DNA from: Acidimicrobiales bacterium
Lineage (GTDB): Bacteria > Actinomycetota > Acidimicrobiia > Acidimicrobiales > Palsa-688
NCBI GenBank assembly: GCA_035533095.1
Contig: DATLUM010000054.1
Location: 62,001-126,000 of the forward strand
Direction: 5' to 3'
DNA: 64,000 nt
The notes below the pieces were generated by a model. The model saw only the letters and a list, made by a program, of their open reading frames with translations. It searched no databases and had not been told where the DNA came from. This document shows positions 8,634 through 50,234 of the stretch, piece after piece (the stretch's first letter is position 1; each line of letters opens with the position of its first letter). Both the position numbers and the translations under genes were made by a program.

Positions 8634-9188
8634 ATGAGCGCAACCCTCGAGACCACCGGCCTGGCCGCCGGCACCTGGAACATCGATCCGGTCCACTCCG
8701 AGGTCGGTTTCGTTGTCCGCCACGTCATGGTGAGCAAGGTCAAGGGCGTCTTCTCCAAGTTCGAAGGCGCCATCACCGTCGACGAGGATCCGTTGAAGTC
8801 AAAGGTCGAGGCCACGATCGACGCCTCGTCGATCGACACGCGCGAGGCTCAGCGCGACGCCCACCTGCGTTCGTCCGACTTCTTCGACGTCGAGACCCAT
8901 CCCGAGATCCGCTTCGTCTCGACCTCAGTGGCTCGCGCCGGCGACGACTTCAAGGTCACCGGTGACCTGACCATCCACGGCGTCACCCGCCCGGTCGATT
9001 TGGCTCTCGAGCTCAACGGCGTCGGCCCCGACCCGTGGGGTGGCCTGCGCGCCGGCTTCTCGGCCACGACCGAGATCAGCCGGGCCGACTTCGGCATCGT
9101 CTTCAACATCCCCCTTGACGGCGGCGGGGTAGTCGTCGGTGACAAGATCAAGATCTACCTGGAGATAGAGGCCGTCCTCGCCAGCTGA
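8634..9188 (+). CDS. YceI family protein (lipid-binding lipocalin-like)
   Basis: 184 residues spanning one YceI domain: WNIDPVHSEVGFVVRHVMVSKVKGVF at the start, the SIDTREAQRDAHLRSSDFFDVE centre and the GDLTIHGVTRPVDL and FSATTEISRADFGI strands. YceI proteins form a long beta-barrel that binds isoprenoids or other hydrophobic chains. No signal peptide is visible, so this copy is probably cytoplasmic. ATG start with a GGAGG site 10 bases upstream, under the MarR-type operators described at 8566-8610; the pairing MarR-YceI is common in actinobacteria. Confidence 0.93.
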   Translation: MSATLETTGLAAGTWNIDPVHSEVGFVVRHVMVSKVKGVFSKFEGAITVDEDPLKSKVEATIDASSIDTREAQRDAHLRSSDFFDVETHPEIRFVSTSVARAGDDFKVTGDLTIHGVTRPVDLALELNGVGPDPWGGLRAGFSATTEISRADFGIVFNIPLDGGGVVVGDKIKIYLEIEAVLAS

Positions 9189-9193
9189 CCCTT

Positions 9194-9238
9194 AAAAGAG
9201 GTTCGCGCCATTCGCCGGCAACTCTGCGAACCTTCTTT
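9194..9238. terminator. Bidirectional terminator between convergent genes
   Basis: Inverted repeat GGTTCGC (9200-9206) / GCGAACC (9226-9232) extended by AAAAGA on one side and TTCTTT on the other. It lies between the YceI gene and the convergent dioxygenase gene and touches the stop codon of the latter. Confidence 0.75.
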
Positions 9239-10097
9239 AGTTGCCGTCGTCGCCCGCCCACGGTTGCAACCACCTCGGGTCCACGGTGTCGCCTTCACGG
9301 ATGAACCGGATGTCGGCCGAGAGCCGCATCGCGTCGGTTCCCGTGTCGAGCGACGCGTGCACCATGTGGGGTGAGTGCGCCGCGACGTCCCCGGCTTTGT
9401 AGTCGGCCCACAACCAACGCCGGCCGGTGGTTTCCGCCACCCAGGCGAGGTCGTGGCTCAAAGGTCGGGCGTCGCCGGGGCGGTCGGTGACGGCGCGCAG
9501 GGGTGCGAGCTCCGCCGGATCCATACGGTGGCTGCCTTCGAGGTAGACGAGACCGCCCGTGGCCAAGGGGCAGTCGCCCAGGGGGATCCACACCGTGACG
9601 AGCTGGTCGCTCCCCTCGTCGAGGTAGGTGTAGTCGGTGTGCGCCCGAGAGGCGCGCCTCGAGGCTCGGTCGAAGTGCCGCACGATCGAGCGGGGGAGGC
9701 GCCATGCCGGCCCGTCCAGGGTCGACTCTGCGAGACGCAGCAACTCCGGCTGGGAAGCGAACCGGTCGAATTCCTCGCCCCGTACGAACCCGTGCGCCGG
9801 GTGACCTTCGACCCCGTGTGGCGGCAGGCCCGAGGGGGCGCGCCCAGAGAAGACGCCGTCGGCGGCCGTAGACCCCTCGCGCAGGTAGCCGGGGTCGAAG
9901 AGCGAGAAGTAGGCCGACCGCATCGCGATAGATCTGGCCGGGTCCAAGAAGCCTGGGAGGTAGAGGTAGCCGTCCTCGAGGTACCGGGCCCTCAACTCGC
10001 CGGGGTCGTGCAGCAGGTCGGAGCTGTCGCGCAACGGCGCGAAATGATCGGTGTCGAAGGGAACCGGTGTCCCGTTGGAAGTGAGCGTCGTCGGCAT
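9237..10097 (-). CDS. Phytanoyl-CoA dioxygenase (PhyH) family protein
   Basis: 286-residue Fe(II)/2-oxoglutarate-dependent oxygenase. The metal triad is visible as H153-x-D155 (AHTDYT) and H247 (HMVHASLD), with a basic residue R258 placed to bind 2-oxoglutarate, and the N-terminal YLEDGYLYLPGFLDP typical of PhyH. The family hydroxylates lipids, ectoine, halogenated compounds and others, so the substrate is open. ATG at 10097 is chosen because the frame upstream of it lacks PhyH similarity. Confidence 0.88.
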   Translation of the reverse strand: MPTTLTSNGTPVPFDTDHFAPLRDSSDLLHDPGELRARYLEDGYLYLPGFLDPARSIAMRSAYFSLFDPGYLREGSTAADGVFSGRAPSGLPPHGVEGHPAHGFVRGEEFDRFASQPELLRLAESTLDGPAWRLPRSIVRHFDRASRRASRAHTDYTYLDEGSDQLVTVWIPLGDCPLATGGLVYLEGSHRMDPAELAPLRAVTDRPGDARPLSHDLAWVAETTGRRWLWADYKAGDVAAHSPHMVHASLDTGTDAMRLSADIRFIREGDTVDPRWLQPWAGDDGN

Positions 10098-19552: not shown

Positions 19553-19601
19553 GTGGCTGGCGGGGGAGGACTCGAACCTCCAACATCCGGATCCAAAGTC
19601 C
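19553..19601. repeat. attL core (49 bp)
   Basis: Identical, base for base, to 34942-34990. It is the anticodon-loop-to-3'-end part of tRNA-Gln, left behind as a non-functional half at this end; the next base differs (C here, G at the right end). Confidence 0.92.
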
Positions 19602-19763: not shown

Positions 19764-19819
19764 AGGAACGTGATGGCGCATTCTTTCCAAACCCCCTGAG
19801 AGAGGTAGCCCCTCCAAAA
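19764..19819. repeat. 56-bp direct repeat with hairpin, copy 1
   Basis: Identical to 22122-22177. It ends in CCCTCC, which can pair with GGAGGG about 20 bases downstream in the diverged continuation, giving a stable stem. The stretch 19602-19901 otherwise holds no gene that I can support. Confidence 0.85.
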
Positions 19820-19901
19820 AAGCGCGGAACCCCAGGGAGGGGGTGCCTCGTGTGCACGGGCCACGCGGCACTCCCCCTCCCCCTGCCCTCAGGCCGGGGT
19901 T

Positions 19902-22121: not shown

Positions 22122-22177
22122 AGGAACGTGATGGCGCATTCTTTCCAAACCCCCTGAGAGAGGTAGCCCCTCCAAAA
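22122..22177. repeat. 56-bp direct repeat with hairpin, copy 2
   Basis: Same 56 bases as 19764-19819. Here CCCCTCC (22168-22174 region) pairs with GGAGGGG about 17 bases later to form a compact stem without a long T-run. Nothing else is identifiable in 22007-22275. Confidence 0.85.
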
Positions 22178-22275
22178 GCGCGAACTCCACGGAGGGGCGT
22201 GCCTTGTGCTTCGTCCACTCGGCACGCCCCTCCCTCCACTGAGATGTCTCCCGGCCGGCGTTGGCAGACGGTCGA

Positions 22276-24106: not shown

Positions 24107-24308
24107 CCCGCAACCGTCGCGGCCGCTCACGGTCACTGTGCTCGACCCGAAAGCCATCGCCCGCATCGAGCGGCTGACGAAGCTCCTGCTCCCCCGGGGG
24201 TGGCCCGCGCTAACCCAACCGAACCTAACACCAAACGAGGCGCCCCGCTCTTACCGGCGGGGCGTTTCCGCGTTCAGAGCGGCTGAACGATTAGCAAAGG
24301 GTCGTTGA
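24093..24308 (+). CDS. Small basic element protein at the end of the plus-strand set
   Basis: 71 residues. The first 45 (PLTVTVLDPKAIARIERLTKLLLP) look protein-like; the remainder is read through a terminator hairpin and into the 3' end of the convergent gene, so the C-terminus may be incidental. ATG inside the preceding gene. Confidence 0.5.
   Translation: MTPRNPQPSRPLTVTVLDPKAIARIERLTKLLLPRGWPALTQPNLTPNEAPRSYRRGVSAFRAAERLAKGR
24242..24269. terminator. Terminator between convergent element operons
   Basis: Stem CGCCCCGC (24242-24249) / GCGGGGCG (24258-24265) with an 8-base loop, followed by TTTCC. Placed exactly where the plus-strand set and the long minus-strand operon meet. Confidence 0.75.
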
Positions 24309-25065
24309 AGTCAACGGTCCCGCTCGCCGTCTTGTACCCCATCGTGAACGTGTGAGAACCGGCCGGGATTCCCGTCCAAAAGTTGGAGTTCCCGGCGAAC
24401 ACTTGAGCCCCGGACGTGGCCGAGCACGACATCAGGTAAAAGTCATACCAAGTGCCTCCGTCGAGTTGCACCCCCACGACCCCTTCGACGTTCGCCCCTC
24501 CGGTCGCGATATCTGCGTGCACCTGGACGAGCGCGGTGGTCGACGGGCCGATCACCGCTGTGATCGTGTTCGTCCCACCGAAGGCAGTGTAGGCGGTGTT
24601 CGTCGCACCGGTCACGCCGGTCGGCGCGATGCCGATGAAGCCGCCGACCTGCTGAAGAGTACCCGGAGTGCTGCCGGTCGACGGAGCGACACCTAACCCG
24701 TAGATCGCCGGTGATGTGTTCAGTTCTCCGAGGCGAGCCTCCTCGTTTCCCGCGGTGTCGTAAACATGGAGACCCTGGTAGTCGATCTCCAAGCGCAGCA
24801 CGCCCGAAGCCGGATCGAAGAACTTGAGTGCCACGTTCCCCGCGGCGTCCTCGCCGAAGAACGCCAACTGGCCTCCGGGGTTCGGCGCCACCAACTGCAT
24901 GCCATATTCGGCAGGGTTCGACCCTGGGATCAAACCGAAGTTCATGATCGGGAGACCGTTGCCGTTCGACAACGTCATCTGCTGCTGCGTTTCGAGTGCA
25001 CGAATGCGTTGAGCGAGCCCGCGGATGATCGCGCCGAGGCTGCCGTCGCCATAAACACCTGGCAT
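24274..25065 (-). CDS. Phage minor tail / receptor-binding-like protein
   Basis: 263 residues, last gene of the late-type minus-strand operon. Short N-terminal coiled coil (AIIRGLAQRIRALETQQQ), then beta-rich repeats of the kind seen in actinophage minor tail proteins: GQLAFFGEDAAGNVALKFFD, LRLEIDYQGLHVYD, EEARLGEL. The C-terminal half is Gly/Thr-rich and resembles a carbohydrate-binding-like beta sandwich. It is the only structural-looking gene in the element and could redirect host range of a helper particle, which is speculation. Confidence 0.62.
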   Translation of the reverse strand: MPGVYGDGSLGAIIRGLAQRIRALETQQQMTLSNGNGLPIMNFGLIPGSNPAEYGMQLVAPNPGGQLAFFGEDAAGNVALKFFDPASGVLRLEIDYQGLHVYDTAGNEEARLGELNTSPAIYGLGVAPSTGSTPGTLQQVGGFIGIAPTGVTGATNTAYTAFGGTNTITAVIGPSTTALVQVHADIATGGANVEGVVGVQLDGGTWYDFYLMSCSATSGAQVFAGNSNFWTGIPAGSHTFTMGYKTASGTVDFNDPLLIVQPL

Positions 25066-25068
25066 TTG

Positions 25069-25335
25069 TCAGAACTCCTTTTCAGTGGCGAAGCTGGCCG
25101 CTTCGCCTGCTAGACGGTCGATGACGTTGGCGACCGGTTCCATTTTCAGGTCGCTCAGCGCGAACGCGTACGAGGCGGCGACAGTGGCCAGGGCCGTGAT
25201 CGTCTCGCGGGCGTCGTCGCCTCTCAGGATCTCGTCGGCAAGTGCCATGACACCGTTCATGTCGTCCGCGACAACGAGGGCGACCATCGCGGCGGCCGCC
25301 GCGTAGCCGGCGCCCTCGTGGTGGTTCGTGCTCAC
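25069..25335 (-). CDS. Small acidic element protein
   Basis: 88 residues, Ala-rich helices (GYAAAAAMVALVVADDMNGVMALADEIL). GTG start overlapping the stop of the terminase nuclease gene. Position after the terminase suggests a packaging or head accessory, but nothing in the sequence shows it. Confidence 0.6.
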   Translation of the reverse strand: MSTNHHEGAGYAAAAAMVALVVADDMNGVMALADEILRGDDARETITALATVAASYAFALSDLKMEPVANVIDRLAGEAASFATEKEF

Positions 25336-25991
25336 AATGCAACTCCTTCGCTTTCTGTTCGGCGGCCTATGTCGGCGCGCATCATGTCCACGAACGCGGC
25401 GGCCGGGCCGGCGCCGCGCTCCGCTCCCCACACGCCCAACGCCAACGCCGTAACAAGGTCGTCGTGCGCGCCGCGCCCCTCGTACTTCGGGCGGCCAGTG
25501 GCCGACATCTCGTAACTGAACGCGCGCATCTCCTTGCCCAACTCTTTCGCCAACGTCAGGTCTGGCGCGGCGTGAAGCCGGCGGGTCGACAGGGCGACTT
25601 CCAAGCATCCGACAAGGTCGGTTTTCGGCACGGCGAAGTCCTGACCGTTCCTCGTCACCGTGGCGCCGGGAGTGATCGTGACACCGTTGACCGGGAACGG
25701 GCAGCCCTGGCGGAGCAGGTCGAGGACAGGGCGGCCCACGCCGGTAGCGTCGACGAACAACACTGGCCTTTCGTCGCAGTCCAAGGTCTCGGCGAACGCC
25801 GTGATCATCTCCGCCTGCTGCGGGTATGGGATCCCGGGCCGCAACCGGTCCAAGGCGATCAGATCGTGCTCTAGGGGCCGACGTTTGCGGCCCTTGGCGT
25901 TCTCGACCGGTTCCCCACGCCACGACGCCACAGCGGCGAGAGCGGTACGGTCCCGGGCCTGGGCGAGGTCGATTCCGATCGACAAGCTCAT
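25332..25991 (-). CDS. Terminase large subunit, nuclease domain (separate gene)
   Basis: 219 residues with the RNase H-like nuclease fold of TerL. The three acidic metal sites are visible: D8 in SIGIDLAQ, D81 in LFVDATGVGRPVLDLL and D177/D178 in GAHDDLVTALALGVW. There is no ATPase motor in this chain. ATG overlaps the stop of the ATPase gene (ATGA), so both chains are made together and should act as one packaging enzyme. In most phages these two domains are one protein. Confidence 0.85.
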   Translation of the reverse strand: MSLSIGIDLAQARDRTALAAVASWRGEPVENAKGRKRRPLEHDLIALDRLRPGIPYPQQAEMITAFAETLDCDERPVLFVDATGVGRPVLDLLRQGCPFPVNGVTITPGATVTRNGQDFAVPKTDLVGCLEVALSTRRLHAAPDLTLAKELGKEMRAFSYEMSATGRPKYEGRGAHDDLVTALALGVWGAERGAGPAAAFVDMMRADIGRRTESEGVAL

Positions 25992-26917
25992 GGTCTTGTC
26001 GCCCCGCAACCGAACGCACAGAAGTGCGGTGGTTCTGGGCGCCAACGGTGCTGACAGAGCTTCTGCTCACGTTCACGCATCCGCTCACCACGGCCCTGAG
26101 CCGCCTGCAGGCTCCGCACATGGCGCCGGAAGGCACGCATGCCGGGATCGACTGGCTGGGCCGGCCGGGGGGCAGCAGGGGCCGCTGGGTGCGCTCTGGC
26201 CGCGAACAGGGCGGCCACGTCGGCGTCTCGGAACGCTGCGCCGGCCGAATCAATGAACGAGCACATGTACTCCGCGGAGAACGCGGCCTCACCTAGCCGT
26301 TCCCGTTCCTCGTCCAGGAACTCGGGGGCGATGCGCGGGCATTCCGTCGCCGGGATGGTGACGTGCTCCCAACGGTCGGAAAGGGTCGCCTCGTACCACC
26401 AGCCGCGCCTGCCCGCGGGGGTCGACATGGCGACAAGGCGGCCACCCGAAACGGCGAGCATCGGGGAGACGGACTGATACAGGGCGTCAGGGACGTAGGC
26501 GGCCTCGTCCACGAGCAGAAGGTCGACGGTGTAACCGCGGATGCCGCCCTCGGATGCTGGGAGCGAAATGACCCGGCTGCCGTTCTCCAAGCGCAACATG
26601 TGAACGTTCTCCTGGAGCGCGTCGACCGGCTTGCCGAGCAACCGGTAGAAAGCCGTGATCTTCAGGAAAAGCTCGTTCGACTGGCGCTCCGAGGGACTGA
26701 CGATCAGCACCGTGGCATTCGGCTTGAACAACGCCGCGTGCAGTGCAGCAATAGACGTGACAGTCGACTTTCCTACCTGGCGCGAACAGTTGAGATGCAT
26801 CCGGGGCGCGGTCGAGCGCAGCACCCGGGCTTGCCAAGGGTCGGGGGAGAACTTGAGTTGTTTCGCGAGCCGTACCGGGTCGGCTGCGCCGGCGAGCCAC
26901 GCCGTCAACTTGCTCAT
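25988..26917 (-). CDS. Terminase large subunit, ATPase domain with zinc-finger-like tail
   Basis: 309 residues. Walker A-like CSRQVGKST (44-52), Walker B VDLLLVDEAAY (131-141), coupling motif LVAMSTPAG (161-169) and the EYMCSFIDSAGAAF segment (216-229) that normally leads into the nuclease domain. Instead there is a Pro/Ala linker and a C-terminal C288-x-H290...C300-x3-C304 cluster resembling small phage zinc ribbons. The nuclease is supplied by the next gene. It powers DNA translocation into a procapsid. Confidence 0.88.
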   Translation of the reverse strand: MSKLTAWLAGAADPVRLAKQLKFSPDPWQARVLRSTAPRMHLNCSRQVGKSTVTSIAALHAALFKPNATVLIVSPSERQSNELFLKITAFYRLLGKPVDALQENVHMLRLENGSRVISLPASEGGIRGYTVDLLLVDEAAYVPDALYQSVSPMLAVSGGRLVAMSTPAGRRGWWYEATLSDRWEHVTIPATECPRIAPEFLDEERERLGEAAFSAEYMCSFIDSAGAAFRDADVAALFAARAHPAAPAAPRPAQPVDPGMRAFRRHVRSLQAAQGRGERMREREQKLCQHRWRPEPPHFCAFGCGATRP

Positions 26918-27441
26918 GATGAGGGGTCTCCTTCGGGTAGTGCGTCGATGGCGTCGAGCGCGTCAGCGATCGCGATCCGCGCGTCCGGGTAGCGTTCCGT
27001 GGCCCCAAGGATCGCGGCCACCGCCTGCGCGAACTCCGGCGTGGTAAGGACATTCACCGTTGTGAACGTCGGGCGCTCGTCCAGTTCACCGCGTAGTCGG
27101 GCGATCAGCTCCAAGCTCTGCCTGATCTCGCGCGCGACGTTGCTGCCACCGGTCAGCGCGCCCTTCTCCTCAGCGAGTGTCAGCAGACTTTCGAGACGGC
27201 CAACGAGCGATTCGACGCGGTCCACGACCGAATCGAACGCCTGACGCGCAGAGTCGGTCCCGAACCGTTCGACAGCGACCTTCGCCAACGCCGGCGAAAG
27301 ATGGTTCGACTTGTGACGGCGGAGGGCGTCCTCGCTAAGCCGGTGCCTGCGTGCGATCGCGGCAGGGCTCTCACCGCCGGCCAGTTCGCTGTCGACGCGG
27401 TCACGGGCGGGCAACGTACACACGGTGCAGGTGCGGGCCAC
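26914..27441 (-). CDS. Small terminase-like DNA-binding protein
   Basis: 175 residues. N-terminal CTVCTLPARDRVDSELAGGE, then a helix-turn-helix (SPAAIARRHRLSEDALRRHKSNH), a central coiled coil and a C-terminal helical region. Position immediately before the large terminase and the domain order HTH-oligomerisation-tail match TerS, which recognises the packaging site. The assignment is by context and architecture. Confidence 0.72.
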   Translation of the reverse strand: MARTCTVCTLPARDRVDSELAGGESPAAIARRHRLSEDALRRHKSNHLSPALAKVAVERFGTDSARQAFDSVVDRVESLVGRLESLLTLAEEKGALTGGSNVAREIRQSLELIARLRGELDERPTFTTVNVLTTPEFAQAVAAILGATERYPDARIAIADALDAIDALPEGDPSS

Positions 27442-27861
27442 CTAGAACGGCTCCTCTTCGACCGGCGTCGGGGCGCGGCGTTCGACCCGCTGCACTTCGA
27501 CAGCGGCGAACCTCAGGTCCGGTCCGATCCCGTCGGCGACGATCTTCTTGGTGCTTCGTTCGACGCCGTCCCGGTCTTTCCAGTGTTCGACCTCGCCCTT
27601 GCCGACGACCACGACCCGGTCACCCTTCTGCAACGACCGGGCGACGTGCTCCGCGAGGGTGCCGAACGCGACGACCTCGTAGAAGACCGTCTCGGCCTCG
27701 GGCTCGCCCTTCGGGACGTGCGGTCGGTGGGCAAGACCGACGCGTGCAAACGCGGTACCGGTCTTGCCGAACCGCAGTTCAGGGTGGCTACTGAGGTTGC
27801 CGATCCTCGCCACCGGTGTCGCGGTATCCGGGGCCGTCACGAGACGATCCGCCTCTTCCAC
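27442..27861 (-). CDS. ssb: Single-stranded DNA-binding protein
   Basis: 139 residues, one OB fold: ARIGNLSSHPELRFGKTGTAFARVGLA, FYEVVAFGTLAEHVARSLQKGDRVVVVGKGEVEHW. The acidic C-terminal tip ends EEEPF, close to the DDDIPF tip of bacterial SSB that recruits partners. Probably coats replication intermediates of the element. It overlaps the upstream gene by 25 bases. Confidence 0.9.
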   Translation of the reverse strand: MEEADRLVTAPDTATPVARIGNLSSHPELRFGKTGTAFARVGLAHRPHVPKGEPEAETVFYEVVAFGTLAEHVARSLQKGDRVVVVGKGEVEHWKDRDGVERSTKKIVADGIGPDLRFAAVEVQRVERRAPTPVEEEPF

Positions 27862-30144: not shown

Positions 30145-31440
30145 TCATGGCTGGCTCCTGTTGGCGCGGGTGCCGGGAGACTCCACCGACTGCTCCGACT
30201 GCGCCGACTGGGGTTCGCTTTGTCCAGTGGGTGCAGTCAGCGCTGTTAGAGCACTCTCCCCATGGCTGCTCCGACTGGGCTGCTCCGACTGTGAGAGGTC
30301 GACCAGGATGCGGTCCACGTCGTCGGGGGTGAGGGTTGGTGCGGACCAGTAGGTGCGCCTGGGGAAGCCGTGTGCGGTGGCGCCAGCACCGATCTTCTGT
30401 CGGGCACGTTTGAGGGCGTCAATGCCGTGGCCATCAGCCTTGCCGGCGTCCTTGATCTCCTTCGACGATGCGACCTTGTGCATGGTGAGGAAGTCGGAGA
30501 GCCATGCGGCTGCCTCCTGGGTCGCGCTGCGGCTGTCGTTGGACTCTGCTGCGGTGCGGAGCACGTCGTCGATGCTGCGGGAGGTCTCGCCGCGCCAGAC
30601 GAGCCGTGCCGTCCAAACCTGGCCCTCGTCTGTCTCGGCCACGACGGCGCCTTCGATGGTGAAGGTGAGGCTCGGCAGGTCGGTTCGCCCGAGGTTGTTC
30701 TTCGGCTGGCCGAGAATCCTGACCTGTTCGCTCTCGGGGTCGACGGTTACGAACAGGACCGCGCGAGCGACAGCAGCGAACGCGCGTGACGCCATGAGCA
30801 TGGTGAGCGGGTCCGTCGTGGTGGACTTGTTCAGGTGGATCAGCCCGAGCAGCGCGATCTGGCATCGGTCGGCGAGCGCGACCAACGGCTCGAGTGCCTG
30901 GCGGACGTCGGCGTCTTTGTGTGTGTCGAGGTTGGCGTCGAGGCGGCTCATCAGTGGGTCGAGCAGCACCATCGCAGCGTCAGCTTCGGTGATCAGCTTG
31001 CGGAGCTCGCCGAGGTCACCGGGAAGGTTGAGCGAACCGTGAAAGCCGGCCGAGGTGGTCACGTCGACCCGGTAAATCCGGTCCAGGTCGGCACCTGCGG
31101 CCATCAACCTGGGGACGATGGTGTGCTCCCACGAGTCCTCGGTCGCGGCCACGACCACCGATCTCGGGTCGCCGAAATAGGCGCCGGTCAGCCTCCCACG
31201 GGTTATGTCGGCCGCGATCTGATAGCAGACAGTGGACTTGCCGATACCCTCGCGGCCGCCCATCAGCGCGAGCGTCCCGAGCGCGACCCTGCCGTCCCAC
31301 AGCCAGCGGACCGGGCGCACCTTGATCGAAGACGCCGGCGTCAGCGTCAGGGCGCGGTGACCGTCCTCACCGAACGCGGCTGGCTCGTTTGGGATGGACC
31401 GGGAACCTGCCGGCAACTCAAGCCGTTCGATCGCGCTCAC
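30145..31440 (-). CDS. AAA-family replicative ATPase (RepA-like, AAA_25)
   Basis: 431 residues. Walker A GGREGIGKST (61-70), Walker B AAMVLLDPLMSR and a sensor region LGLIHLNKSTTTDP are those of RecA-fold hexameric helicases such as RSF1010 RepA. The C-terminal third has a helical DNA-binding-like part and a Ser/Gln-rich tail. Preceded by a separate DnaB-N-type protein with a 4-base overlap, so the pair may substitute for a DnaB helicase at the element's origin. Confidence 0.82.
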   Translation of the reverse strand: MSAIERLELPAGSRSIPNEPAAFGEDGHRALTLTPASSIKVRPVRWLWDGRVALGTLALMGGREGIGKSTVCYQIAADITRGRLTGAYFGDPRSVVVAATEDSWEHTIVPRLMAAGADLDRIYRVDVTTSAGFHGSLNLPGDLGELRKLITEADAAMVLLDPLMSRLDANLDTHKDADVRQALEPLVALADRCQIALLGLIHLNKSTTTDPLTMLMASRAFAAVARAVLFVTVDPESEQVRILGQPKNNLGRTDLPSLTFTIEGAVVAETDEGQVWTARLVWRGETSRSIDDVLRTAAESNDSRSATQEAAAWLSDFLTMHKVASSKEIKDAGKADGHGIDALKRARQKIGAGATAHGFPRRTYWSAPTLTPDDVDRILVDLSQSEQPSRSSHGESALTALTAPTGQSEPQSAQSEQSVESPGTRANRSQP

Positions 31441-31886
31441 GACGCCACTCCCACCAGCCGGCGGAGATCCGGGGCGAGATCGGCGACGACTTGCTCAAGG
31501 GGTTCGCCTTCGCCCAGACGGTTGAACAGATCGCGGGCCGCCGTCATCGCGCGTCTTGCGTCCGCGGCCCGTCTAACCCGGCCGGCGAGGGTACCGTTCG
31601 TGTCCCATTGCAGCGGCCGGTCGTCGACAATGCGACGAACCTGGTCGACCGCAACGCCAGCTAGCTCGGCGGCGCGAGCAATCCGGGCTTCACGCGTGTC
31701 GAGATCCGTGCCGGGCAGATCGAGCCGTCCGCACGCCTCGAAAAGTCGGCGGAGGTCTGGACGGTAAAAGTCGTCGGCGGCGACGCGCGACGCGGCCATC
31801 TGGTAGCCGCGCTCACTGTCGACGCAGCAGCCGCTCACGCCCTCCTCGGCCGTCGCGTCCTCGGGGATGTGGAGATCGGCGCCCAT
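31437..31886 (-). CDS. Stand-alone DnaB N-terminal domain-like protein
   Basis: 149 residues. HIPEDATAEEGVSGCCVDSE followed by AADDFYRPDLRRLFEACGRL matches the DnaB helicase N-terminal domain (P-x5-E-x2-V-LG; DFY-x3-H/L-x2-IF), which normally contacts primase. The helicase domain is absent here and provided by the next gene. Overlaps both neighbours (ATGA). Confidence 0.75.
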   Translation of the reverse strand: MGADLHIPEDATAEEGVSGCCVDSERGYQMAASRVAADDFYRPDLRRLFEACGRLDLPGTDLDTREARIARAAELAGVAVDQVRRIVDDRPLQWDTNGTLAGRVRRAADARRAMTAARDLFNRLGEGEPLEQVVADLAPDLRRLVGVAS

Positions 31887-32959: not shown

Positions 32960-33727
32960 ATGGCTGATCACGTCACGTTCGAGCAAGCGGTGGGAGCGAA
33001 CGTCTCCCGGCTGCGAATCGCCGCAGGGAAGACTCAGGGCCAGGTGGCCGACCACCTAGCGATGCGCGGGCTTAGCTGGCGGCGCAGCACCGTCGCTCAG
33101 GTCGAGACGGCGCGTCGGCAGATAGGGCTCGCCGAGGCTCTCGCTTTGGCGGATGTACTCGACGTCCCGCTTGTGGAACTCCTGCGAACGCAAACGCCGG
33201 TCCGGGTCGATCTCGGGCAGTGGCACCCGAAGTTCCTCGTGGCGGCGCTAGAGGGAACCACCGGCGACCTTCTCGCAATCGAGTCCTACACATCCCCCAG
33301 CCGCGAGAAGATGTACTCGCAGATTCACGTCGTCCTCGGTGCGCTGAACTCCGCGGATCAGCGACACGCCGACCGCTGGCCAGGACGGTACCGCGAGCGA
33401 GACCTCGGGGCTGCGACCCCCTTTGAGTATGCGACCGCTCGGCGCATCGAATCCCAGGTTCGGCTCGGGGTCCGTGCCCCGGACGTGGTGGCCGCCGCCG
33501 ACACGCTGTGGAGGCACTCACTCACCGAAGAGCGCGACCGACGGGTAAAGCGCCGCGCGAACGCGAAGGCATCCCCGCGGACCCTTCAAGCCGTTCGCGG
33601 GCTTGTCATGCGTGAACTCGACAAAGAACTCGAAGCCGCCATCGAGGAAGCAGCCAACCGTGCGGCCGTCGAGCCGGCACCGAAACCCAAGCGAGGGGCG
33701 CAACGCCCCGGAAAGGGCAACCGATGA
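32960..33727 (+). CDS. XRE-family repressor of the element
   Basis: 255 residues. N-terminal HTH (VSRLRIAAGKTQGQVADHLA ... RSTVAQVETARRQIG) and a helical C-terminal region with a basic tail rich in Lys and Pro. No LexA-like Ser-Lys autoprotease motif is seen, so induction may need an antirepressor, as in satellites. Divergent from the Cro-like gene; its stop overlaps the integrase start, so repressor and integrase are one lysogeny operon. Confidence 0.82.
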   Translation: MADHVTFEQAVGANVSRLRIAAGKTQGQVADHLAMRGLSWRRSTVAQVETARRQIGLAEALALADVLDVPLVELLRTQTPVRVDLGQWHPKFLVAALEGTTGDLLAIESYTSPSREKMYSQIHVVLGALNSADQRHADRWPGRYRERDLGAATPFEYATARRIESQVRLGVRAPDVVAAADTLWRHSLTEERDRRVKRRANAKASPRTLQAVRGLVMRELDKELEAAIEEAANRAAVEPAPKPKRGAQRPGKGNR

Positions 33728-35007
33728 AGGGAAGCACTCGCAAACGTGGCAGCACGTGGACGGCGTATTGGTTCACGACCGACCCGGCGACGGGGGAGCG
33801 CAAGCAGCACACCCGGGGTGGCTTCCGGACGCAGAAGCTCGCCCAGGGCCACCTGAACGGGATCCTGGAGAAGGTCGAGACCGGGGCGTGGAAGCCCGAT
33901 CAGAAGCTCACCGTCGGGCAACTGCTGACCGAGCATTGGCTGCCGGCCATCAGGACCGAGGGACACCGACCCGCGACGGTCGAGCAGTACGAGTCCGTGG
34001 TCGAGCACTGGATCGTGCCGCACATCGGGGCCAAGGTCGTGTCCACCCTCACGCCGTCCGACGCGCAGGGCTACGTCGAGCGGATCCGGACCACCAAGAC
34101 CGCTTCGGGACGCAAGGGGCTGTCGGCCCGGAGTGCCCAACTGTCGGTCGGGATCCTCAAGGCCGCTACCGCGTGGGCCCTGACGGCCGGGCTTCTCGGA
34201 CGGGACCCTCTGTCCGGCGTGAAGCGCCCGAAGGTGACCCGCAAGCCCGTCTCTGCCTGGTCGACCGACGAGGCCCGCAGATTCCTCGCGGCGACCAAGG
34301 ACAGCCGCCACGCGTGGGCGTGGGCTCTTCTCCTGAGCCGTGGTCTGCGCCGGGGTGAGCTTTGCGGGCTGCGTTGGGACGCTGTCGACGTGGAGGGCGG
34401 CTCCATCCGGATCACCCGGACCAGGATCCTCATCGACGGCAAGGTCGCCGACTCGATCCCCAAGACGCTCTCGGGCCTCCGGTCGGTCCCGATCGACTCC
34501 TACCTCGTGGCACTCCTGAAAGCCCACAAGGCCCGCCAAGCGGCCGAGCAGCTCGCTGCCGGCGAGGCGTACGAGGATGAGGGCTGGCTGTTCGCCGACG
34601 AACTCGGCAAGCCCTACTACCCCTCCAGCCTGTCCGTATGGTTCGAGGAGGAGCGGGCCAAGGCGAAGCTCCCGAAGATCCCGCTCCACGGCACAAGGCA
34701 CACGGCCGCGAGCCTCATGCTCGCCGACCGAGTACCCGTCCGGGTCGTCTCCGAGATGCTGGGCCACTCGGACCCGAACATCACCTTGAGCGTCTACGCG
34801 CACGTGATCCCGGGGATGGCGGAGACGGCCGGGGCCAGCCTGTCCGCGTCGCTCCTCGGGGTCGATGTTGACAAAGCGTTGACAAGCCCCGAATCCGGGG
34901 ACCCTGCCGAGGGGGTCATAGTGCCTCTGACCAGGGCCGTTGTGGCTGGCGGGGGAGGACTCGAACCTCCAACATCCGGATCCAAAGTCCGGTGTTCTGC
35001 CAATTGA
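33724..35007 (+). CDS. int: Tyrosine integrase whose C-terminus is read through attR into tRNA-Gln
   Basis: 427 residues in the integrated state. N-terminal arm-binding domain (about 1-60), SAM-like core-binding domain (65-165) and catalytic domain with R210 (GLRRGEL), K248, H322 and R325 (HGTRHT), H348 (LGHSDPN) and the nucleophile Y358 (SVYAHV). The last residues GGGGLEPPTSGSKV are encoded by the att core, antisense to the tRNA; the final RCSAN and stop are host DNA. In the excised circle the frame would continue with the left-end sequence and end PPES. ATG overlaps the repressor stop. Confidence 0.95.
   Translation: MKGSTRKRGSTWTAYWFTTDPATGERKQHTRGGFRTQKLAQGHLNGILEKVETGAWKPDQKLTVGQLLTEHWLPAIRTEGHRPATVEQYESVVEHWIVPHIGAKVVSTLTPSDAQGYVERIRTTKTASGRKGLSARSAQLSVGILKAATAWALTAGLLGRDPLSGVKRPKVTRKPVSAWSTDEARRFLAATKDSRHAWAWALLLSRGLRRGELCGLRWDAVDVEGGSIRITRTRILIDGKVADSIPKTLSGLRSVPIDSYLVALLKAHKARQAAEQLAAGEAYEDEGWLFADELGKPYYPSSLSVWFEEERAKAKLPKIPLHGTRHTAASLMLADRVPVRVVSEMLGHSDPNITLSVYAHVIPGMAETAGASLSASLLGVDVDKALTSPESGDPAEGVIVPLTRAVVAGGGGLEPPTSGSKVRCSAN
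34867..34886. promoter_or_regulatory. Candidate integrase arm-type sites, right arm
   Basis: GTTGACAAA (34867) and GTTGACAAG (34878), 11 bases apart, inside the 3' end of int and 56 bases from the core. Matches the left-arm pair at 19717-19737. Confidence 0.5.
34942..34990. repeat. attR core (49 bp)
   Basis: Identical to attL. Covers the tRNA-Gln anticodon loop, T arm, acceptor 3' strand, encoded CCA and one further base, and simultaneously codes for the end of the integrase on the opposite strand. Confidence 0.92.
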
Positions 35008-35018
35008 ACTACCCGCCA
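34943..35018 (-). tRNA. tRNA-Gln (anticodon UUG)
   Basis: 76 bases with genomically encoded CCA. Acceptor TGGCGGG pairs with CCCGCCA; the anticodon loop is CTTTGGA with anticodon TTG; the T loop GGTTCGAGTCC is standard. Integration kept the gene whole because the att core restores its 3' half. Confidence 0.95.
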
Positions 35019-43960: not shown

Positions 43961-45617
43961 GGACACCGTCAGGATCGTCTTCCTCGGCGGGCTCGGCGAG
44001 ATCGGGCGCAACTGCGCCTGCATCGAGGTGGCTGGCCGGATCATGATCCTCGACTGCGGGTTGATGTTCCCCGACTCGGAGATGCCCGGTATCGACCTGG
44101 TGCTGCCCGACTTCACCTACCTGCGCGAGAACGCGGAGCGCGTCGAGGGCTGCATCATCACGCATGGGCACGAGGACCACTGCGGTGGCCTGTCGTTCCT
44201 GCTGCGCGAGCTGTCGTTCCCGATCTACGGCTCGGAGTTGTCGCTCGGCCTCGCCCGCAGCCGTATCGAGGAAGCAGGGTTGCTCGACCGCACGACGCTG
44301 AACCCCGTCCGCGACGGCGAAAGGCGCATCATCGGGCCGTTCGACGTCGAGTTCATCCCGGTCACCCACTCGGTGCCGCACGGTTTCGCGACCGCGTTCC
44401 ACACGCCGCAGGGGGTGATCCTCCACTCGGGTGACTTCAAGATCGACCTGACACCGGTCGACGGCCGTGCCACTGATCTGGCGCGCATCGGCGCCATCGC
44501 GTCCGGCCCCGGCGTTCGGTTGCTGCTGTCCGATTCCACGAACGCGGAGGAAGAGGGCCACACCCGGAGCGAGCGTTCCGTCGGGCGGGCCCTCTCCGAA
44601 CTCTTCGCCGCGCACGCAGACAAGCGGGTGATCGTCGCCTGCTTCGCCAGCCACATCCACCGGATCCAGCAGATCGCCGACGCCGCGTTGGACAACGGGC
44701 GGATCATCGCGACGCTGGGTCGTTCGATGGGGAAGAACGTCGCGCTGGCACGGTCGATGGGCCTGCTGCGCATCCCCGACGACAGCATCGTCGACATCGA
44801 GCAGATCGGCGACCGGGACCCCCGCCGGGTGTGCGTCATCTCGACAGGGTCGCAGGGGGAGCCGATGTCGGCTCTCGCGTTGATGGCCGCCGCCGACAAC
44901 AAGTGGATCTCCGTCGGCGAGGGCGACCTCGTGGTGCTCTCGTCCCACGCCATCCCGGGCAACGAGACCAACGTAGGCAAGGTCATCGACGGTCTGCACC
45001 GCCTGGGCGCGGAGGTAGTGCACTCGGGTATCGCAGCGGTGCACGTGAGCGGCCATGCGATGCGCGAGGAACTGAAGACCCTGCTCTCGCTCACCCATCC
45101 CGACTGCTTCATCCCGGTGCACGGCGAGTTCCGCCACCTCACGCACCACGCCCGCCTCGCCGAGGTGATGGGTGTCCCTCCCGAGCGCGTGCTGCTGGCC
45201 GAGGACGGCGATGTCGTCGAGCTCACCCAGTCCGGAATCGACTTCGCCGGCGAGGTGCCGGCCGGCTATCTCTACGTCGACGGGATCGTCGGCGACGTCG
45301 GCACGGGCGTGCTGCGCGACCGCCGCGTGCTGGCGGAAGAGGGCGTCGTGATCGTCGTGGTGACCGTCGACGCCAAGTCCGGGGAGGTGCTCACCGGTCC
45401 CGAGATCATCACCCGGGGATGGGTGTACGCCCCCGAGGCCGAGGAGTTGTTGGGCGAGGCCCGCCAAGCTGTGCTCGAAGCGCTGGAGGAGGCGGCAGAC
45501 TCGGGCGCCGTCGACTTCGACACCCTGAAACGCCGGGCCCGGTCGGCCCTCGGCCGGTTCGTCAACGAGCGCACCCGCCGGCGCCCCATGATCGTCCCTG
45601 TGGTCATGGAGGTCTAA
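43953..45617 (+). CDS. rnj: Ribonuclease J
   Basis: 554 residues. Metallo-beta-lactamase core with FLGGLGEIGRNC, the metal motif HGHEDHCGG, the beta-CASP segment (CFASHIHRIQQI) and LTHPDCFIPVHGE. It performs 5' exonucleolytic and endonucleolytic RNA processing. ATG start inside the dapA end. Its 3' end is seven bases from that of the convergent ferritin-like gene. Confidence 0.95.
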   Translation: MPEDTVRIVFLGGLGEIGRNCACIEVAGRIMILDCGLMFPDSEMPGIDLVLPDFTYLRENAERVEGCIITHGHEDHCGGLSFLLRELSFPIYGSELSLGLARSRIEEAGLLDRTTLNPVRDGERRIIGPFDVEFIPVTHSVPHGFATAFHTPQGVILHSGDFKIDLTPVDGRATDLARIGAIASGPGVRLLLSDSTNAEEEGHTRSERSVGRALSELFAAHADKRVIVACFASHIHRIQQIADAALDNGRIIATLGRSMGKNVALARSMGLLRIPDDSIVDIEQIGDRDPRRVCVISTGSQGEPMSALALMAAADNKWISVGEGDLVVLSSHAIPGNETNVGKVIDGLHRLGAEVVHSGIAAVHVSGHAMREELKTLLSLTHPDCFIPVHGEFRHLTHHARLAEVMGVPPERVLLAEDGDVVELTQSGIDFAGEVPAGYLYVDGIVGDVGTGVLRDRRVLAEEGVVIVVVTVDAKSGEVLTGPEIITRGWVYAPEAEELLGEARQAVLEALEEAADSGAVDFDTLKRRARSALGRFVNERTRRRPMIVPVVMEV

Positions 45618-45624
45618 AGAGCGG

Positions 45625-46134
45625 TTACCAGCTGGGGCGGGGCGTGTGCGCCAGGACGAACTCCAGCATCGCGATGTGCTTGTCGGTGTCGCGGCGCATC
45701 AAGCCGACGACCAGGTCCCACAGGGTCGTGTGCTGGACCTCCTGGAGCCCGTCGTGCAGGCGGCGGAGTTCCCTGGCATCGGCGTCCTCGTTGCGCAACA
45801 TCTTCAGCGAGAGCTCGCGGATCTTGTCGGAATCCACCCGGTCGAAGTCCATGTAGGGGATGACGGGGGAGCCGGGTATGAGCTCCGCCTCGCTCTTCAC
45901 CGTCTGGGCGAGGGACTTGAACAGCTCGTGGTGGCGCTTCTCGTCCTCGACCAGTAGCCCCACTACGTAGGCGAACGCCTTCGATCGCGTCTCCTGGGCG
46001 GCTTGCATGTACTCCTGGAGAGTCTCGCGCTCGCGTTCCATGTGGCTCACGAGGAGTTCGAACAACTGCCGCTCCCAGGTGCTCGCGCTTATCGGGGGCG
46101 AAATCTTCGTCTCGTCACCGGTGCCGGGGGTCAT
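45625..46134 (-). CDS. Ferritin-like / rubrerythrin-type four-helix protein, copy 2
   Basis: 169 residues. LLVEDEKRHHELFKSLAQTV corresponds to IVDDERRHHRVIEQIANTV of the 42551-43045 protein, and MRRDTDKHIAMLEFVL to MRMDTERHITILKFIE. N-terminal extension of about 18 polar residues. Three bases from the hemerythrin gene on the same strand, so it is the second gene of a DevR-box-controlled pair. Confidence 0.78.
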   Translation of the reverse strand: MTPGTGDETKISPPISASTWERQLFELLVSHMERERETLQEYMQAAQETRSKAFAYVVGLLVEDEKRHHELFKSLAQTVKSEAELIPGSPVIPYMDFDRVDSDKIRELSLKMLRNEDADARELRRLHDGLQEVQHTTLWDLVVGLMRRDTDKHIAMLEFVLAHTPRPSW

Positions 46135-46137
46135 GCC

Positions 46138-46587
46138 TCACCACCGGATCAGCATTGCCTGATGGACTTCTTCGATCAGGGCCCAGTTCTCGTTCGGGAG
46201 GCGCTGCAGGGCAAACGGGAACAGGTCATTGTCCTCTGTCTGGGCGTGGACGGTCAGGCGGTCGAGCGCCTGGCGGAGCAGCTCAGTGTCCCGGGCGCCG
46301 GCAGCGACGGACATCCCCGCCAGGATCTCTCGGTGGTCGGCCTCCAGCAGCGCCACCTCCTCGACGGCCTCGTCGGCGGCCCGGAGCTGGCTGAAAAGGC
46401 CCCTCTCCTCTGTGCGCGCATGGCACCTGAACATGACCTCGAGGTCGGCGGCGCATTGGAACGCACTTGACAGGTCTCCTTGATCAAGGCACTTTTCGAT
46501 GTCCCTGACCAGCGAGGCGATCGTCGCGTGGTCATCCATGAGCACGGCGATCACCGGCTCGGCCTCGCATCCGCAGTAGCTGCACAT
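46138..46587 (-). CDS. Hemerythrin-domain protein
   Basis: 149 residues. N-terminal MCSYCGCEAEP precedes the bundle; ligands appear as LMDDHATIASLV, CHARTEERGLFSQL, EADHREILAG and VHAQTEDNDLFPFAL, the H-HxxxE-H-HxxxD set for an oxo-bridged di-iron site binding O2 or NO. The extra CSYCGC motif could bind another metal. ATG with GGAGGAG upstream. Divergent from the universal stress protein. Confidence 0.88.
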   Translation of the reverse strand: MCSYCGCEAEPVIAVLMDDHATIASLVRDIEKCLDQGDLSSAFQCAADLEVMFRCHARTEERGLFSQLRAADEAVEEVALLEADHREILAGMSVAAGARDTELLRQALDRLTVHAQTEDNDLFPFALQRLPNENWALIEEVHQAMLIRW

Positions 46588-46650
46588 TGTGACTCCTCCC
46601 TGCACGTCCACCCGCTCGCAATCCTCGGCGGGACAGCCGCTTCCATGGCA

Positions 46651-46708
46651 GGGTCTTTCGGACCTTTCCAGGGGGTATTCCAACCCCTCCCGATGACCTT
46701 CGGCCCTA
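46651..46708. promoter_or_regulatory. DevR-box-like elements between hemerythrin and universal stress genes
   Basis: GGGTCTTTCGGACC at 46651-46664 (reverse GGTCC-GAA-AGACCC) and TGACCTTCGGCCCTA at 46694-46708 share the ACC-N3-GG core. Placed in a 156-base divergent promoter region. Weaker than the copies at 36611, 42470 and 48076. Confidence 0.55.
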
Positions 46709-46743
46709 CTCCCGAGCGTGTGCAGAGGCTTACGTTCGGAACC

Positions 46744-47646
46744 ATGGAGAAGATCGAGACGGGCAAGAAGGTCCTCGTCGGGGTCGACGGATCGAAGCAC
46801 AACCGGGCTGCCGTGGAGTGGGCGCTGCGAGAAGCCCGCGCGCGCGATTGCGAGTTGATCGCTGCGTACGCGTGGCACCTCCCGACTCTCGTCTACTACG
46901 CGCCGGGCTACCTGCCGATCGCTGCCGACGAGATGGCCGAGGAAGGCACCAAGCTGCTGCAGGGCGCCATCGGCGACATCCCAGGTCACGAGGACGTCAA
47001 GGTGGAGATGCGCGTCGTGCAGGGACCCGCACGAGTTGCCCTCTCACGAGTCGCGGAGGAACCGGGCGTCGGGTTGGTCGTGGCGGGAACCCACGGGCAC
47101 GGCAGCGCTCCGGGAGCCCTGCTCGGTTCCGTCAGCCACGGGTTGTCCCACCGTTGCACGAAGCCGTTGGTGATCGTGCCCGACACCCCGCACGGCATCG
47201 ACGTCCCGCCTTCGATCCGGCGGATAGTGGTAGGTATCGACGGCTCCTCTGCAGCAGAAGCAGCCCTTGAGTGGGCCGCAGAGGAGGCGGGCCTCCACGG
47301 CTCCCTCCTCGAGGTGGTGACGGCCTGGTCATGGACGAGCAGCCCCTCGGAAATGGTCGCGGAGATTCCTGCCGGCGAGAGCCTCGAATCAGTGGCACGG
47401 GACCTCCTGCGGCGCTCGGTCGACTCGCTTGCACCCAGCGACATCCGGCTGAACTGCGTTACCCGCGAGGGGCAGCCGGCAGCGGTCCTGCTGGACATGG
47501 CAGAAGGAGCGGACCTGCTGGTCGTGGGTTCTCGCGGACGGGGTAGGGCGGCCGAGATGGTTCTGGGCTCTACCAGTCACCAGTGCGTCCATCGGTCTTC
47601 GGTCCCCGTTGTCGTGGTTCCGTCGGAGGTGAAAGGCCGTGGCTGA
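46744..47646 (+). CDS. Tandem universal stress protein
   Basis: 300 residues, two Usp domains. Domain 1: VLVGVDGSKHNRAAVEWALREA and GTHGHGSAPGALLGSVS; domain 2: IVVGIDGSSAAEAALEWAAEEA and GSRGRGRAAEMVLGSTS. The G-2x-G-9x-G(S) loops indicate ATP binding in both. Two-domain Usps are prominent in the mycobacterial DosR regulon. Start ATG 36 bases after the DevR-type box. Overlaps the next gene by eight bases. Confidence 0.94.
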   Translation: MEKIETGKKVLVGVDGSKHNRAAVEWALREARARDCELIAAYAWHLPTLVYYAPGYLPIAADEMAEEGTKLLQGAIGDIPGHEDVKVEMRVVQGPARVALSRVAEEPGVGLVVAGTHGHGSAPGALLGSVSHGLSHRCTKPLVIVPDTPHGIDVPPSIRRIVVGIDGSSAAEAALEWAAEEAGLHGSLLEVVTAWSWTSSPSEMVAEIPAGESLESVARDLLRRSVDSLAPSDIRLNCVTREGQPAAVLLDMAEGADLLVVGSRGRGRAAEMVLGSTSHQCVHRSSVPVVVVPSEVKGRG

Positions 47647-48061
47647 CCACTCCGGTTACCAGGAGATTCCACGCGACGAATGCGTCGGGCTGCTCGCGAC
47701 GGCGACGGTGGGACGCATCGCCGGTACCGCCGGCGGCAGACCGTTCCTCCTCCCGGTCAACTATGCGGTAGACGGGGATCGTGTGGTGTTCAGAACGTCG
47801 GCGGGCACCAAGCTGTCAGGGACGGCGTTCGGAAGGGTCGCGTTCGAGATCGATGGTTTCGATGACGCCGACCGCAGCTGGTGGAGCGTCGTAGTGGAGG
47901 GGGTGGCGTCGGACATTTCGGATATGGTGGACGAGCAGTCGACGAAGTTGCGTTCACTTGACCTGCATCCGTTCGCTCCAGGTGAGAAGGCGTATTGGGT
48001 CGCCATCCAGCCCGAGTCGATCACGGGCCGGAGGGTACGACCGCCAGCTGACCTTCACTGA
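47639..48061 (+). CDS. PNPOx-like flavin-binding-fold protein
   Basis: 140 residues. ECVGLLATATVGRIAGTAGGRPFLLPVNYAVDGDRVVFRTSAGTK is the split-barrel N-terminal half of pyridoxamine-phosphate-oxidase-like proteins; mycobacterial relatives lie in the hypoxia regulon. Cofactor (FMN or F420) not deducible. GTG start overlapping the Usp gene. Confidence 0.85.
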   Translation: MADHSGYQEIPRDECVGLLATATVGRIAGTAGGRPFLLPVNYAVDGDRVVFRTSAGTKLSGTAFGRVAFEIDGFDDADRSWWSVVVEGVASDISDMVDEQSTKLRSLDLHPFAPGEKAYWVAIQPESITGRRVRPPADLH

Positions 48062-48075
48062 GCGCCTCGCCGAGA

Positions 48076-48092
48076 TAGGGCCATTGGTCCCA
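48076..48092. promoter_or_regulatory. DevR-box-like palindrome before the cytochrome b gene
   Basis: TAGGGCCATTGGTCCCA; read on the minus strand it is GGGACC-AAT-GGCCCTA, the same form and spacing as the boxes at 36611 and 42470. It lies 82 bases before the cytochrome b ATG. Confidence 0.68.
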
Positions 48093-48173
48093 TGATCCAG
48101 AGACCATCGCCCCGGTGCGCGTGACACTAGGTTCGTCAACGATCTGAGGAACCAACACCCCAGGGGGGTAAGC

Positions 48174-50075: not shown

Positions 50076-50087
50076 ACCACCCGGTCC

Positions 50088-50173
50088 TTTTTGAGGGACA
50101 TACCGGTTCTGCGGGACAGGGACGTCATATGGCGACGGCCCTGTCCCGCAAAAAGCCGATGTCCCTTAAAAAA
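50088..50173. repeat. 86-bp nested inverted repeat
   Basis: Outer arms TTTTTGAGGGACAT (50088-50101) and ATGTCCCTTAAAAAA (50159-50173); inner arms TGCGGGACAGGG (50110-50121) and CCCTGTCCCGCA (50139-50150), the latter perfect. T-rich at one end and A-rich at the other, so it could terminate transcription both ways; alternatively a small non-autonomous insertion. Confidence 0.85.
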
Positions 50174-50234
50174 CCCGCCGGCGGGCAGGTCTTCCCGTGT
50201 GGGAACTGTGACTGCTGTTACGCTCGGGGCTGCT

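Follow-up and report, generated by a model that had tools for sequence, protein, structure and literature searches.

Our analysis revealed that an integrated element of an Acidimicrobiales bacterium almost certainly encodes its large terminase (TerL) as two polypeptides, a motor and a nuclease, and that this TerL belongs to an old and under-annotated family. The window, by which we mean the whole 64,000-nt stretch of DNA analyzed (GCA_035533095.1, contig DATLUM010000054.1, positions 62,001-126,000, forward strand), holds three minus-strand genes chained by ATGA overlaps. Specifically, a TerS-like gene (26914..27441, 175 aa) overlaps the start of the TerL motor gene (25988..26917, 309 aa), whose stop in turn overlaps the start of the TerL nuclease gene (25332..25991, 219 aa) at 25988..25991. 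The original prediction, that a large terminase is divided here into a motor gene and a nuclease gene, with the Walker A/B and coupling motifs on one chain, the nuclease on the next, and an ATGA overlap between them, is borne out, as both chains are complete and their motifs and profiles agree. We give a probability of roughly 0.88 to the reading of a T4/P74-26-type motor and a separate RuvC-like nuclease, probably coupled in translation, that together form a DNA-packaging TerL, and a lower one to the part in which it serves a satellite-like element.

The motor is an ATPase-only chain (ATPase domain, residues ~10-235) that contains SRQVGKST at residues 45-52, LLLVDEAA with D137 and E138, and MSTP with S165 and T166, which we take to be the Walker A, Walker B, and coupling motifs, respectively. 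It matches Pfam Terminase_6N (1.5e-13) and phrog_7579, annotated “terminase large subunit” (4.6e-61), a profile of motor-only length (239 positions). Further, its own profile retrieves T4 gp17 (9e-16) and structure 4zni (5e-19), presumably the P74-26 terminase. The structure model (pLDDT 69) places a long helix at ~258-289, followed by an end (289-309) with pLDDT below 50.

The nuclease chain opens straight on the first nuclease strand (MSLSIGIDLAQ). It matches no Pfam family, and its one good PHROGs match is phrog_27743, “unknown function” (4.4e-32), which at 233 positions is of nuclease-only length; its RNase H/RuvC-like identity emerges from structure, with the profile matching the G20c/P74-26 terminase nucleases (2e-14) and the structure model (pLDDT 84) having the G20c nuclease as its best Foldseek match (5e-8). 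Residues D8, D81, and D178 are unchanged across 13 aligned nuclease rows and align with G20c D294, D347, and D429, the last being the second Asp of the G20c HDD motif; these three G20c residues are described as indispensable in PMC5389553. Of the catalytic set first proposed, D8/D81/D177, the first two residues stand, while D177, which is not kept in one relative (L061), gives way to its neighbor: judging from the alignment, D178 is most likely the third catalytic Asp. The window thus encodes both halves of a TerL of the T4 gp17/P74-26 type, namely an ATPase core that bears the Walker A, Walker B, and coupling motifs and a nuclease of the RuvC/RNase H-like kind in which the three essential carboxylates are present; in that type the two domains share one polypeptide, and here they occupy two ORFs. 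The upstream 175-aa protein has a CxxC and an HTH-like N terminus, and its family lies upstream of most TerLs in the same ATPase clade; from this position and family conservation, it presumably acts as TerS. Downstream, a 4-nt overlap links the nuclease gene to an 88-aa ORF (25069-25335), beyond which a 263-aa protein (24274..25065, minus strand), phage tail- or fiber-like by eye, has no family match in Pfam or PHROGs.

The cassette lies in a 15.4-kb integrated element. A repeat search identified a 49-bp att repeat (34942..34990) in the 3' part of a tRNA-Gln gene (34943-35018) and a 100% identical copy at the far end of the element (19553..19601). Besides the three terminase genes, the element encodes regulators, a tyrosine integrase (33724..35007, plus strand; Pfam 1.2e-22, phrog_1 6.6e-70), and, on the minus strand, a DnaB N-terminal-like protein (31437..31886; 7e-5), a RepA/DnaB-type AAA ATPase (AAA_25; 30145..31440; 4.5e-27), and a single-strand DNA binding protein (27442..27861; Pfam SSB 2e-20). 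Known satellites typically integrate at tRNA genes and measure 10-16 kb; an integrase with att repeats at a tRNA gene, within ~10-20 kb, is one mark of a phage satellite, and the window's element has these features. No portal, capsid, or tail gene was recognized in it by Pfam and PHROGs family models, which may miss divergent genes; this holds too for the capsid and portal that, with TerL/TerS, would mark a capsid-forming PICI. The whole genome has no match to Phage_portal or SPP1_portal, and its only capsid match is on another contig. That genome also contains a second element-like stretch, ended by a contig end (G000:C9 ~44448-51750; L195 1449-8751), with an integrase, DnaB/AAA, and an HK97-like capsid protein (PF05065, 1e-18). 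Within the window's element, a 61-nt direct repeat occurs at 19764-19824 and 22122-22182 (97% identical).

Similar elements, either bounded or circular, occur at L051, L053, L054, L057, and L059. The nearest relative, L051/L029, comes from another genus of the same family in an independent assembly (G022, “Actinomycetes bacterium FK5.bin99”), with 71% identity in the motor and 64% in the nuclease. The L051 element spans 11.9 kb with a 45-bp repeat at tRNA-Phe; the Rhodovibrio element, 11.0 kb with 49 bp at tRNA-Cys; the Magnetococcales element, 10.5 kb with 51 bp at tRNA-Val; and the L057 element, 13.5 kb with 24 bp at tRNA-Glu, while L059 is a 12.1-kb contig whose 47-bp terminal repeat is that expected of a circle. 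The motor-nuclease pair is also found on the Salinibacter ruber plasmids pSR11 (11.2 kb), pSR14 (14.9 kb), and pSR31 (31.6 kb) and on a 16.3-kb Streptomyces virginiae plasmid. The TerS profile matches upstream ORFs on pSR14 and pSR31 and none on pSR11 or the S. virginiae plasmid. Beside this pair, pSR31 carries two more ORFs (L191 5798-6436, 8620-9240), one a second phrog_27743 paralog and the other a match to phrog_13702, “terminase large subunit”.

Among 68 non-terminase genes of six elements, 22 Pfam families were found, one of them a head protease and none a portal or major capsid family; a PHROGs scan of the same elements added a tape measure protein in Rhodovibrio, among the first 25 of 55 families listed. 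This 68-protein scan covered genes other than the terminase genes, most integrases, L051:1766-2449, L051:5669-6868, and the two end genes of L059, with separate Pfam/PHROGs searches covering the window genes among these; L056, L063, L105, and L107, too short or broken, stood outside the element analysis. Genes outside annotated records were called by a custom script, and the absence of capsids is based on family models and these calls. Phage_capsid and Phage_portal were absent from all nine searchable host genomes or plasmid records with such elements, a set that excludes the host genome of L053. The major head protein family phrog_617 matched 1 of 87 neighboring proteins, and a rescan of 10 candidate neighbors for it gave no match. 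The head protease is of the XkdF type (Peptidase_S78_2, 6.4e-11; L031 14034-14552, in the G022/L051 element), with no recognized capsid alongside. Tape-measure-like genes, likewise with no recognized capsid, lie at L053 7344-9320 (Rhodovibrio), L189 7132-9018, L190 9641-11467, and L193 8976-13295; their carriers include S. ruber pSR11 and pSR14 and Rhodococcus pDJL3, where TerL is single-chain.

With no portal or capsid family recognized in the element, a helper phage would most likely supply the portal and shell, and the element would then be satellite-like; that it combines its own packaging motor with the shell of another phage is, from gene content, a reasonably likely reading. The split alone does not imply a satellite, since Methanothrix (L052) and an IMG/VR record (L003) have a split TerL plus a portal in what appear to be full phages; two Pfam families gave some portal signal in 10 of 39 IMG/VR records, 5 of them exceeding the curated cut-off. 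One alternative, which we regard as unlikely, is that the element is a decaying prophage that lost its capsid, portal, and tail genes, the terminase genes being remnants. The head maturation protease kept in the L051 element and the tape-measure-like gene kept in Rhodovibrio and two Salinibacter elements fit such decay. Against it, none of the three terminase genes is damaged and all evolve under purifying selection, with pN/pS between the window and L051 of 0.23 for the motor ATPase domain, 0.45 for the nuclease, and 0.37 for TerS; further, bounded elements from several phyla and closed 11-16 kb plasmids repeatedly show this compact layout, and repeated sparing of exactly these genes is not expected from decay. 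An improbable alternative is that the two chains no longer package DNA and serve, for example, plasmid or element resolution or defense. Some carriers are indeed plasmids with ParA and primase, and the carriers' searchable genomes and records lack portal and capsid by two Pfam families; nevertheless, the TerS-like gene, both catalytic centers, and the gene order are retained, and the tape-measure or head-protease genes of several elements point to virion assembly.

At the junction itself, the sequence comparisons support an evolved split, as the original prediction had proposed. L051 has the identical ATGA junction, and relatives over several phyla also have the split. Across 21 split loci, the nuclease domain starts anywhere from 27 nt before to 587 nt after the motor stop, and each of the three possible frames with respect to the motor occurs among them. 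In the window, both frames are open over 78 nt upstream of the motor stop, and in the window and L051 alike, the nuclease is read in the -1 frame with respect to the motor, a frame that is also open 5' of the motor stop. This arrangement would suit programmed -1 frameshifting that yields a fused TerL besides the two chains, a possibility to which we attach very little weight, given relatives with other frames, gaps of up to 587 nt, or an intervening ORF. Finally, that a sequencing error or recent frameshift broke a single-chain TerL can be set aside, despite the ATGA overlap and the 78 nt of shared open frame, because the independent assembly carries the same split, no frameshift at the junction could join the two chains in 7 of the 21 loci, where the nuclease frame is not open into the motor gene, and dozens more loci are split. 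At L011 (~8800-9240), an additional small ORF with CPLC...CWTC lies between motor and nuclease and is missing in the near relatives L003 and L004, and at L107 (8853-10149, G617), the motor gene is spread over two frames, so that a real frameshift or assembly error may sit there.

Relatives were sought in a genome scan (40 loci), an order search, and a phylum search; the order search gave any match in 16 of 397 genomes, and the phylum search, at 1e-20, in 6 of 396. Two-gene TerL loci occur in Actinomycetota (several lineages), Pseudomonadota, Myxococcota, Acidobacteriota, Rhodothermota, and archaea, with individual loci in Methanothrix, Methanoperedens, Rhodovibrio, Magnetococcales, Gluconobacter, Novacetimonas, a deltaproteobacterium, Thermoanaerobaculia, and Bryobacter. 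The best 80 of 440 IMG/VR relatives comprised 57 split, 10 single-chain, and 1 cut TerL, and 12 without a recognized nuclease, 9 of which, with their long C-terminal parts, are probably single-chain. Viral contigs searched by the nuclease alone gave no matches; the pattern method probably cannot cope with so variable a sequence. In an ATPase tree of 50 domains, all 22 split rows fall inside one clade of 27 (support 99/99), whose other five rows, the group of Thermus phage Riverbug and two Acidobacteria (L064/L065), are single-chain. Owing to these single-chain members, more than one split or re-fusion may have taken place; the ATPase tree requires three split/fusion changes, while an AU test did not reject a single split clade (p 0.175), and the nuclease tree places the split rows on one side of a weakly supported branch (74/21). 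One old split followed by one or two later fusions and two to three separate splits both fit; the single-chain TerL of Riverbug is possibly a re-fusion, although its linker resembles those of distant single-chain TerLs. Motor and nuclease distances are correlated (Mantel r 0.71, p 1e-4, 18 rows; without near twins, r 0.62, p 0.0013, 14 rows). These results show that one TerL clade has long kept its TerL in two genes, mostly by vertical descent, and, as read from the trees, the split is common to the whole clade and far older than the window's element. In Thermoanaerobaculia (L059 7424-9320, L060 8165-9982), three tandem TerL-nuclease paralogs lie 3' of the motor, the first and third without the first catalytic Asp (SVGPPSD, LELGQPSD) and the middle one keeping it; L019 (6543-8897) has a 784-aa single-chain TerL with ~340 residues inserted within the ATPase domain, possibly an intein.

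The C-terminal tail of the motor has a different history. Residues 288-309 (25991..26056, minus strand) form the pattern C288-x-H290...C300-x3-C304, and the usual motor chain ends instead with ~10-20 residues, often EVEPLF-like. The tail that had been noted at the outset is real in the window, although among relatives its cysteines recur only in L051 (CAHRW...CVFC), so that 2 of 22 split rows carry it and none of the 57 split loci among the best 80 of 440 IMG/VR relatives does. Single-chain homologs were checked for the same tail in frame; none of the relatives has it within one chain, and the nearest single-chain proteins (Riverbug, MMP17, and L002) lack it. The two tails match at 30% of 23 aligned residues, yet the C, H, C, and C are kept in both, with the last pair CxxxC in one and CxxC in the other; pN/pS is 0.84, against 0.23 for the ATPase domain, indicating that the tail evolves fast. 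Taken by its distribution, the tail is young and lineage-specific; it may be a zinc finger, and it is a plausible candidate for a metal-binding docking piece.

A plausible mechanism can be outlined from these parts. The ATGA overlap would probably serve to couple translation of the nuclease to translation of the motor. TerS would mark the element's own DNA, the nuclease subunit would make the initial cut, motor subunits assembled into a ring would dock on the portal and pump DNA, and the nuclease would be recruited again for the end cut, with a helper phage supplying portal and shell. A protein-protein contact would take the place of the covalent link of a single-chain TerL and, in the window's lineage, the helix (258-289) and unstructured Cys/His end added to the motor may offer a docking site. 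More tentatively, and with the odds slightly against so broad a claim, 10-16 kb elements and small plasmids across several bacterial phyla, and possibly archaea, may form widespread satellites with TerS and a two-chain TerL and no portal or capsid, in which separate chains may let one adapt to foreign portals, and of which some multiply or inactivate the nuclease. The coordination of ATPase and nuclease in terminases has been studied on single-chain enzymes; in a natural and ancient two-chain TerL, motor and cutter can be purified, mixed, and mutated apart. PHROGs v4 files the nuclease under “unknown function” (27743, with 7579 for the motor), and the Salinibacter and Streptomyces plasmids list it as “hypothetical protein”, so genome annotations will usually show half of the enzyme.

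The closest named phage relatives of both chains are the TerLs of Thermus phage Riverbug (PQ109080) and Meiothermus phages MMP7 and MMP17 (motor, 48-52% over residues 8-224). Riverbug gp33 is the same TerS-like gene just 5' of TerL, as in the window; in contrast, TerL in these phages is a single chain of ~415 aa that has a short linker and lacks the Cys/His tail, and behind its gene come those for portal, protease, and capsid, whereas the window's element has no recognized portal or capsid. A TerL in two genes is already in print: in Arthrobacter cluster AY phages, according to PMC11920828, the ATPase and nuclease occupy two consecutive overlapping genes after TerS. The cluster AY phage BillyTP (PP978841) is, unlike the window's element, a full phage with portal and capsid, and as its chains gave no match at E 10 to the motor and nuclease profiles of the window's clade, the cluster AY TerL is, from these profiles, probably an independent split. 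The accessible parts of PMC5513430, PMC5679792, PMC11841831, PMC12474458, and PMC9915841 hold nothing on a split TerL, that of PMC6060240 merely mentions terminases for small S. ruber plasmids, and in the open-access literature, we found no description of satellites with TerL and no capsid; the setting in elements with no recognized capsid or portal looks new.

Among satellites, the window's element resembles P4-like elements, SaPI/PICI, capsid-forming PICIs, and Streptomyces Mulch/Flayer in being tRNA-integrated with its own integrase and replication genes. As far as the accessible text of PMC10690885 goes, PICIs may bring TerS and cf-PICIs TerS and TerL, and the satellite classes it lists bring either just TerS or else TerL together with capsid and portal; a class with just TerL and TerS is absent there. 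PICIs bring only TerS, and in cf-PICIs and Mulch/Flayer, portal and capsid come along too, whereas window-type elements have TerL, with TerS recognized in most and portal and capsid not recognized. This combination suggests a packaging strategy beyond the classes given in that part of PMC10690885, in which an element would bring its own TerS and TerL and borrow the portal and shell.
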